Assembly: GCA_016192075.1 (NCBI GenBank)
Contig: JACPUU010000012.1
Location: 186,001-250,000 of the forward strand
DNA: 64,000 nucleotides
Direction: 5' to 3'
Source of the DNA: Bacteroidota bacterium
Lineage (GTDB): Bacteria; Bacteroidota; Bacteroidia; Flavobacteriales_D; Crocinitomicaceae
Within the stretch, counting starts at the first letter, position 1. Each line of letters begins with the position of its first letter. The notes beneath the pieces are model-generated. The model searched no databases. It had not been told where the DNA came from and worked only from the letters and a program-made list of their open reading frames with translations. Positions 6,070 to 8,832 of the stretch are shown piece by piece. The translations under genes were made by a program, and so were the position numbers.

Positions 6070-7140
6070 ATGGCAGGTAACACATTTGGACATACATTCA
6101 GATTAACCAGTTTTGGTGAATCGCACGGCATTGCAATTGGCGGTGTTATTGATGGCTGCCCATCCAATGTGGAAATTAATTTTAAAAAAATTCAGCATGA
6201 ACTGAATCGCCGTAAACCGGGTCAGTCAGCTATTACAACACAACGTGATGAGGCAGATGAAGTGGAATTTTTATCCGGAATTTTTGAAGGAAAAACACTG
6301 GGTACACCCATTGCTTTTCTCATTAAAAATAACGATCAGAAAAGTGAAGATTACGATGTGCTCAAAAATGTTTTCAGACCATCGCATGCAGATTATACCT
6401 ACCAGGAAAAATACGGCATTCGTGACCACCGTGGCGGCGGACGCAGCAGTGCCCGTGAAACAGTTGCCCGTGTGGTAGCCGGTGCCATTGCCCGGCAGAT
6501 TCTGGCCAAGTTTAAGATTGACATAAAGGCATTTGTTACCCAGGTAGGTACTGTGCGAATGCAAAATCCGTTTGAATTTTTTACGACTGAACAGATTGAA
6601 GCAAACGCAGTGCGCTGCCCTGAAAAAGACACGGCTGATAAAATGATTTCACGGATTGAAGAAGTTCGTGCGGCAGGTGATAGCATTGGCGGAGAAATAC
6701 ACTGCATTGTATCCGGCGTTCCGGCGGGATTGGGAGAACCCGTATTTGACAAACTGCATGCTGACCTGGCTAAGGCTATGTTGGGTATTAATGCAGTGAA
6801 AGGTTTTGAAATCGGCAGTGGTTTTGCAGGAGTTAAAATGCTGGGCAGTGAACAAAACGATGAACTGTTGCCTGATGGAAAAACCAGGACGAACAACTCA
6901 GGTGGTATACAAGGCGGTATTTCCAACGGACAGCCAATCTTGTTCAACGTGGCGTTTAAACCGGTAGCATCCATTCTTCAAAAGCAGCAAACCATAGATG
7001 TACATAACAACCCGGTAATGCTTGATGTAAAGGGCCGTCATGATCCTTGTGTGGTGCCGCGCGCTGTTCCTATTGTTGAAGCCATGGCAGCACTGGTTAT
7101 ACTGGATCACCTGCTCAGGCAAAAAGCGTCGCGGCTATAA
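6070..7140 (+). CDS. aroC: Chorismate synthase
   Basis: [58 protein letters not shown] signatures. Confidence 0.97.
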
Positions 7141-7173: not shown

Positions 7174-8832
7174 ATGTCTGACCGATCTTACACCGTTGAA
7201 ATTCTGAATGAGCCTATCAGCTTTGAAACAATTTCATACCTGAATTCGGTTAAGCTGTGTGAGTATGCTGCCAATAAAAAAATCAGGGAACATAAACTGG
7301 GCTACCTCACCAAAGAAGATATTTATTTCAACATTGAACGTGGCTATAGCATTAACATAGACCAGGCTTACGTTAAGGATTTTTCACTTTCTGAATACCG
7401 CACACAGCGTAATTTGCCGGCAACAGAAAAAGTAGTGATTGCAGGTATTTCAAGCCGGTTTACGTTTTTTGACTGCGATTCGGTCATTGATTTTTCGTAT
7501 GCCGTTTTTGAAGAAGAGGTAAATTTTAAAGAGAGCATTTTTCCACACGGGGCACTCACGTTTATGCATGCTGAATTTGTTGCTTCAACCGTTGATTTTT
7601 CAGAGTGCAAATTTCATTCGCATAATACAACGTTTGAACATGCTTCATTCAAAGCGTCTGAACTGACCTTTGAGCACGCCAGGTTCAGTGGTGACGGTGT
7701 TTCGTTTATCAACGCCCTGTTCAGTGCTGATGAAGTAAATTTCAAGCGGGTGAATTTTGGCAATGCACGGGTTAAATTTCATTTTGCTGAATTTGGAAAC
7801 GGTGTCAAACTTTTTGAACGCATTCGGGTAAATGGCGCGTTGTTTGATTTCAGACGGGTTGTTTTTGGATGCGGTAAAATTGACTTCAGACGTGCTATGT
7901 TTGGAGACGGCTATGTTACGTTTGAAGAATCTGAAATTACAGAGGGAAAACTGACGTTTCGCATGGCCCGTTTTGAAGGGGGAGATTTGTCTTTCAGGAG
8001 AATGGATTTTGGAAAAGACGAAGCAACCTTTGACCATGTAGATTTTAATAACCGGTCCATATCGTTTGAAGGAGCTGATCTGAGTGTGCTTTCTGTTTCA
8101 AATTCATTCGTGCGGGGCAACCTTGATCTGAGAATAAAAAAAGCCGATAAAATAGATCTCAGTCACAGTTACCTGTATTCGATTACAGATTTGAATTTTC
8201 AAAAAGAGGAATCCTTAAAGGTATTATCACTGCTGGGCGTCAGAAATCTTGGAAAAATTATCATCCGCTGGAAAGAAAATCACGTGCGCCGTCTGATTGA
8301 AAGCAACGGCGGTGAGGCGGATGATCTGGCTGATCAGTTCAATATTCTGAAGGCTAATTTTTCAGCAAACGGTCAGTACAACGATGAAGATTATGCGTAC
8401 CTGCATTTTAAACGGCATGAACACCGTTATATGAAAAAGCGGGCGCTTGAAAAAAGTAAACCATCATTCCGCCCGCTGATACACCTTGGGTATGCACTTC
8501 GTTTGCTGGTGTTTGATAAAATGGGACTGTACGCAACTAATCCGGCACGGGTACTGGTGAGTATGGTGGTAGGCATTTTTTTCTTTGCCGCTGTTTATGT
8601 GTTATTTCATGTTTTTGGAATTGGTGAAATTGTTAATTCAGTAGATGCAGCAGATAAACTGAATCTGGCCGAACGTTCTGTTTACCATTCTGCCATTACA
8701 TTTTTTACCATTGGTTACGGTGATTTTTATCCAACCGGATTCAGCCGTCTCATTTCCGCTCTTGAAGGCTGGAGTGGTGTTTTTCTGATGTCGTATTTTA
8801 CCGTGGCGTTTGTACGCAAAATTCTGCGTTAA
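7174..8832 (+). CDS. Beta-helix (12-residue, pentapeptide-like repeat) protein fused to a C-terminal two-TM potassium channel module
   Basis: About 16 tandem units such as TFEHASFKASEL/TFEHARFSGDGV/SFINALFSADEV, then TM, SAITFFTIGYGDFYPTGFSR selectivity filter and second TM. Confidence 0.85.
   Translation: MSDRSYTVEILNEPISFETISYLNSVKLCEYAANKKIREHKLGYLTKEDIYFNIERGYSINIDQAYVKDFSLSEYRTQRNLPATEKVVIAGISSRFTFFDCDSVIDFSYAVFEEEVNFKESIFPHGALTFMHAEFVASTVDFSECKFHSHNTTFEHASFKASELTFEHARFSGDGVSFINALFSADEVNFKRVNFGNARVKFHFAEFGNGVKLFERIRVNGALFDFRRVVFGCGKIDFRRAMFGDGYVTFEESEITEGKLTFRMARFEGGDLSFRRMDFGKDEATFDHVDFNNRSISFEGADLSVLSVSNSFVRGNLDLRIKKADKIDLSHSYLYSITDLNFQKEESLKVLSLLGVRNLGKIIIRWKENHVRRLIESNGGEADDLADQFNILKANFSANGQYNDEDYAYLHFKRHEHRYMKKRALEKSKPSFRPLIHLGYALRLLVFDKMGLYATNPARVLVSMVVGIFFFAAVYVLFHVFGIGEIVNSVDAADKLNLAERSVYHSAITFFTIGYGDFYPTGFSRLISALEGWSGVFLMSYFTVAFVRKILR

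Follow-up and report, generated by a model that had tools for sequence, protein, structure and literature searches.

The window, a 64,000-nucleotide stretch of contig JACPUU010000012.1 from a Bacteroidota bacterium, contains on its forward strand a 552-amino-acid open reading frame with an ATG start (7174-8832), which is predicted to encode a potassium channel made of a pentapeptide solenoid and a two-transmembrane (two-TM) pore (Table 1). In a Pfam search, the protein scores above the curated cut-offs for both Pentapeptide_3 (PF13576; 42.5 bits, cut-off 27) and Ion_trans_2 (PF07885; 32.5 bits, cut-off 22.5), and among 20 homologues Ion_trans_2 was matched in 19 and Pentapeptide_3 in 14 at E 0.01. 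A further Pfam match, to Transketolase_N (E 0.22), was discarded as chance, and an NCBIfam search of the protein returned nothing.

Table 1. Features of the channel gene and its upstream neighbour; positions are those of the window, and residue numbers those of the 552-residue protein.
Feature	Position	Strand	Basis
Chorismate synthase-like gene, 33 bp upstream of the channel	6070..7140	+	Named from its sequence
Pentapeptide-solenoid two-TM potassium channel, complete gene, 552 aa	7174..8832	+	ORF; PF13576 7.8e-11, PF07885 8.1e-8
N-terminal alpha/beta domain, residues 1-92	7174..7449	+	AlphaFold secondary structure and pLDDT, conservation, low hydropathy
Beta-solenoid, residues 93-345	7450..8208	+	AlphaFold pLDDT mostly >90; strands at 12-residue intervals
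Sixteen canonical 12-residue units, residues 117-308; F at position 2 throughout and at position 7 in 13	7522..8097	+	Sequence, autocorrelation
Most conserved outward solenoid face, units 225/237/249 (DFRRV.FG.GK / DFRR..FGDG / FEE.E)	7846..7953	+	Per-unit conservation
Solenoid end/cap with conserved W366 and N369, residues 346-381	8209..8316	+	AlphaFold, conservation
Helical hairpin linker, residues 382-427, motif LK..F...GQY.DED.AY..FKR.E	8317..8454	+	AlphaFold helices 382-399 and 402-427; invariant residues
Slide-helix region, residues 430-456, ends FDKMGLYAT	8461..8541	+	AlphaFold, homologue comparison
TM1, residues 457-483	8542..8622	+	Main hydropathy peak; AlphaFold helix 457-481
Selectivity filter TIGYGD, residues 512-517	8707..8724	+	Sequence
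TM2, residues 524-552; the best-conserved segment, with RKILR directly before the stop codon	8743..8829	+	Continuous AlphaFold helix, conservation

An AlphaFold model built with 20 homologues (pLDDT 88.4, pTM 0.75 for the whole protein) places in order the alpha/beta domain, the solenoid, its end cap, helices 382-399, 402-427 and 430-450, TM1, a pore helix, the filter and TM2. The N-terminal region, which an earlier sequence-only reading had taken to be a solenoid fused to a potassium-channel pore, is indeed predicted as such, with residues 1-370 modelled alone reaching pLDDT 92.6 and pTM 0.88, and the linker and two-TM module with TIGYGD that this reading placed after it are likewise borne out, the TM2 helix running to the C-terminus. 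The first 92 residues match no known family, carry no signal peptide (hydropathy is low) and are only weakly conserved in the homologue alignment. Zero residues follow TM2, so that a C-terminal gating domain is absent, and all 38 homologues examined terminate at this same place, exactly after TM2. Across these 38 proteins, conservation is highest in TM2, the filter region and the helical linker and lowest in the turret and the N-terminal domain; the filter reads T[IV]GYG[DE] in 34 and T[IV]GFGD in the other four, and a conserved FDKMGLYAT.P.RV region lies immediately N-terminal of TM1, its FDKMGLYAT part corresponding to YGE.P elsewhere among pentapeptide channels. Within the solenoid, it is the outward residues of the units at 201-260 that are most conserved (motifs DFRR, GK and FEE.E; best-block permutation p = 0.02), which makes the outward face of units 225-260 a candidate ligand or partner site, although the conserved face may instead serve a subunit or protein contact.

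The sixteen 12-residue units noticed from the sequence run uninterrupted across residues 117-308, with phenylalanine at position 2 in 16/16 and at position 7 in 13/16. Between residues 91 and 312 there are 25 phenylalanine pairs at lag 12 and 24 at lag 24, with 14 each at lags 5 and 7 and one to three at lags 6, 11 and 13, and the lag-12 count exceeds every one of 10,000 shuffles (mean 5.7, maximum 15). The 38 homologues show this 5+7 = 12 spacing as well (943 pairs at lag 12, 528 at lag 5 and 529 at lag 7). These lags of 5, 7, 12 and 24, not 10 and 20, depart from the classical Rfr pattern, which has a five-residue period and 20 residues per coil in a quadrilateral right-handed beta-helix. 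The period had been proposed to set the protein apart from pentapeptide proteins, a distinction that does not survive, given both the PF13576 assignment and the annotated pentapeptide proteins of Streptomyces that share the 5+7 period. A plasmid search with the window solenoid retrieved almost only proteins of this Streptomyces type, about 30% identical over the solenoid, and the matched Streptomyces plasmid protein (WP_329583145.1, PF13576), whose existing annotation is pentapeptide repeat-containing, shares the phenylalanine-rich 5+7 unit, with 49 lag-12 pairs among 55 phenylalanines; unlike the window channel, it is without a pore and has hydrophobic N-terminal segments in its place. Since the 12-residue period is shared with annotated proteins, it represents an existing form rather than a new repeat, and the channel's 12-mer is, by its spacing, a pentapeptide repeat in 5+7 form.

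This 12-residue variant appears to be without any solved structure. Neither the solenoid profile of the channel family nor the Streptomyces repeat gave a meaningful sequence match among solved structures, and the Foldseek check that had been proposed for the solenoid gave no match in the PDB at E <= 0.001 when the solenoid model was searched. Its nearest matches are right-handed beta-helices and AlbG, with poor TM-scores; the pentapeptide protein AlbG ranks third (E 0.14, TM-score 0.27). Residue similarity is 0.42 at lag 12 and 0.30 at lag 24, which is compatible with a coil of either 12 or 24 residues, because unit duplication gives the same signal.

Relatives of the channel are patchily distributed. 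Matches were found in 26 of 99 related genomes, about 18 of them over most of the protein and the rest over the pore only. Within the order, full-length relatives were present in 30 of 299 genomes; the class has them in 26 of 395, and one related family in 16 of 25. The 38 examined are scattered through the class. Outside the channel's group, the matches from a sample of the phylum mostly cover the pore only. Two members of the window's family fall among members of other families in the tree, and transfer or old duplication has therefore occurred; patchy presence and a tree that disagrees in places with the families are what an accessory gene would show. A second, diverged copy of the channel is found in two genomes, and the window's genome has only two Ion_trans_2 pores, the channel included. 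Searches of phage and of E. coli sequences with the channel gave no match, a search of a viral fold library gave no significant one, and the PHROGs search matched only two families of unknown function. Among individual relatives, one homologue (G022:C18:23495-25117, L074) has in-frame stops and is a probable pseudogene or sequence error, and in another relative the gene just upstream of the channel is a classical pentapeptide-repeat gene in its own right (L066:931-1479). In other Bacteroidota genomes, solenoid channels (L053:331-1983, L056 and L057) have a signal-peptide-like N-terminus and a solenoid that appears to be exported; a further hydrophobic segment precedes their T.G[YF]G[EN] pore and would restore normal pore topology, and these are a possible outward-facing variant.

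The window shares with its three closest relatives a gene order of LuxC-like acyl-CoA reductase, phosphoglucomutase-like gene, chorismate synthase-like gene and channel, so that the chorismate synthase-like/channel pair is kept in the three nearest homologues; the phosphoglucomutase-like and chorismate synthase-like genes are named from their own sequences. In another clade, the channel sits between thioredoxin-like and citrate synthase genes, and neighbour order is conserved inside clades. By their gene content, these neighbourhoods look like housekeeping settings with no obvious defence island.

Genes that combine pentapeptide and ion-channel parts are already annotated in bacteria and archaea. 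Those of Priestia, Halorubrum, Halorussus and Haloarcula share with the window channel a solenoid, an LK...G...A...Y..E linker, YGE.P.RV and a two-TM pore, and they differ from it in having classical or other solenoids and low identity outside the pore. On one haloarchaeal plasmid (L080:3573-4774), the pentapeptide and channel parts are two adjacent genes, a split or two-subunit form. In the papers searched, no description of a bacterial pentapeptide potassium channel was found, and channels are not mentioned in a review of pentapeptide proteins (PMC8145042).

The closest characterised layout is that of HalA, the channel effector of the Hailong system, which two papers describe second-hand as controlled or held by bound DNA (PMC13275509, PMC12657230). 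A PDB fold search with the model of the entire protein ranked HalA with oligodeoxyadenylate (9nyi) first (E 6.3e-4, probability 1.00, but a low TM-score of 0.34 and an rmsd of 15 A), and like the window channel HalA has a pentapeptide solenoid, a helical linker and a two-TM pore in a single chain. The match vanishes when residues 1-370 are searched alone and therefore depends on the general arrangement of the chain and on the pore. The HalA chain was not reached by sequence search with the window family, only with a profile of HalA-like channels from plasmids. These channels came from a plasmid search with a distant Bacteroidota channel, which retrieved a Priestia pentapeptide channel with a nucleotidyltransferase directly after it, whose best PDB matches are HalB (weak, E 0.007); pairs of the same type lie on one Pseudomonas and two Rhizobium plasmids. 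The HalA-like profile picks up the HalA chain (E 1.1e-6), and its alignment with the window family (hhalign probability 90, E 1.7e-6) spans TM1 to the C-terminus; HalA is therefore a pentapeptide-pore protein, and in layout the window family is its cousin. The HalA-like proteins found have classical five-residue repeats and HalB adjoining, and have mostly lost GYGD in their proteobacterial members, whereas the window channel, which lacks a HalB, has a 12-residue repeat, keeps TIGYGD intact and bears an additional N-terminal domain. The Hailong-like pairs on the Priestia, Pseudomonas and Rhizobium plasmids (L081:3950-5553, L086:2478-4046, L087:2884-4439 and L088:2899-4466) carry no annotation beyond pentapeptide protein and nucleotidyltransferase; TVGYGQ is retained in the Priestia channel, and those of Pseudomonas and Rhizobium have lost the filter. 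In Janthinobacterium, a HalA-like gene (L089:1941-3717) has no annotated nucleotidyltransferase partner and is preceded by an exonuclease gene.

In the well-studied two-TM prokaryotic potassium channels, regulation is mostly by C-terminal domains, and the cytosolic domains of KcsA, MthK and KirBac, whose pore fold and filter are common with the window channel, are C-terminal. The window channel, as opposed to these, has nothing beyond TM2, and regulation must therefore come from the N-terminal side. That the solenoid is a gating or docking scaffold had been suggested from the sequence, a reasonable idea that the analysis supports in part; gating is plausible because a C-terminal gating domain is absent and the best fold match is the DNA-controlled HalA. 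The reading we favour, with a probability of about 55%, is a potassium channel gated from its N-terminal side by a cytosolic ligand that binds the solenoid and moves the linker, slide helix and pore. The regulatory part would be wholly N-terminal and cytosolic, with the alpha/beta domain and a rigid 12-residue beta-solenoid of pentapeptide-superfamily type leading through the helical hairpin into the slide helix and TM1. A cytosolic molecule, be it a small polyanion, a nucleotide or a protein, would bind the solenoid, with the Arg/Lys/Glu face conserved in units 225-260 as a possible site, and four rigid towers would then shift the hairpin and slide helix so that the pore changes. By likeness to HalA, such solenoid-ligand gating is the most likely arrangement for the window channel, which presumably is a tetramer, conducts potassium, is gated by a ligand and has a binding site for it.

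Pure docking is the main rival to this ligand gating. The solenoid would then hold a constitutively active potassium channel near a partner, without gating it, as might be expected from the fact that long solenoids often serve as binding scaffolds; moreover, no ligand pocket has been identified in the window channel, and the Streptomyces proteins show that pentapeptide proteins with a 12-residue period exist without a pore. Docking does not account so readily for the helical linker and slide helix that join solenoid to pore being among the more conserved parts, and HalA itself is reported to be under cytosolic ligand control (PMC13275509); we regard docking as possible but rather unlikely. A further alternative, which we consider improbable, is that this potassium channel responds to tension or osmotic change and that its gating is set by the membrane pulling on the slide helix, not by a ligand: the conserved segment just before TM1 would suit it, and a genome with just two Ion_trans_2 pores might leave a general turgor role to this one, but it leaves the retention of a long solenoid and its conserved face unexplained.

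Least probable is that the channel acts as an anti-phage effector of the Hailong type, kept closed by DNA oligomers. In favour of this, one can cite the fold match to HalA and the plasmid-borne pentapeptide channels beside nucleotidyltransferases, the Priestia one with its weak HalB match. Against it, a search whose positive controls matched found no HalB-like gene in the window's genome, nor was there one among 489 ORFs in the neighbourhoods of the 38 homologues; PADLOC gave no match, the neighbours are housekeeping genes in conserved order, and the repeat is of 12 residues rather than five. On present evidence, the comparison points to a HalA-like design and not to a member of Hailong, and the role of the channel is probably in regulation of cellular potassium, turgor or stress rather than in phage defence.

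Whether the architecture was already known, which the sequence-only reading had left as a question, has a divided answer: the general design, seen in HalA and in annotated pentapeptide channels, and the 12-residue period are known already, and what is new here is a channel family that is itself uncharacterised, as are its version of the repeat and its trigger. In the window family, all of the regulatory mass is on an N-terminal repeat tower, as in HalA, without a defence partner. It is conceivable, though we think it unlikely, that the solenoid senses a cytosolic nucleotide or nucleic-acid signal in ordinary physiology, that channels of this kind are the housekeeping stock from which the DNA-gated Hailong effector was drawn, and that the 12-residue repeat has an unsolved beta-helix geometry. 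The identity of the ligand would reveal what such towers normally sense and a possible origin of the phage-defence channel.
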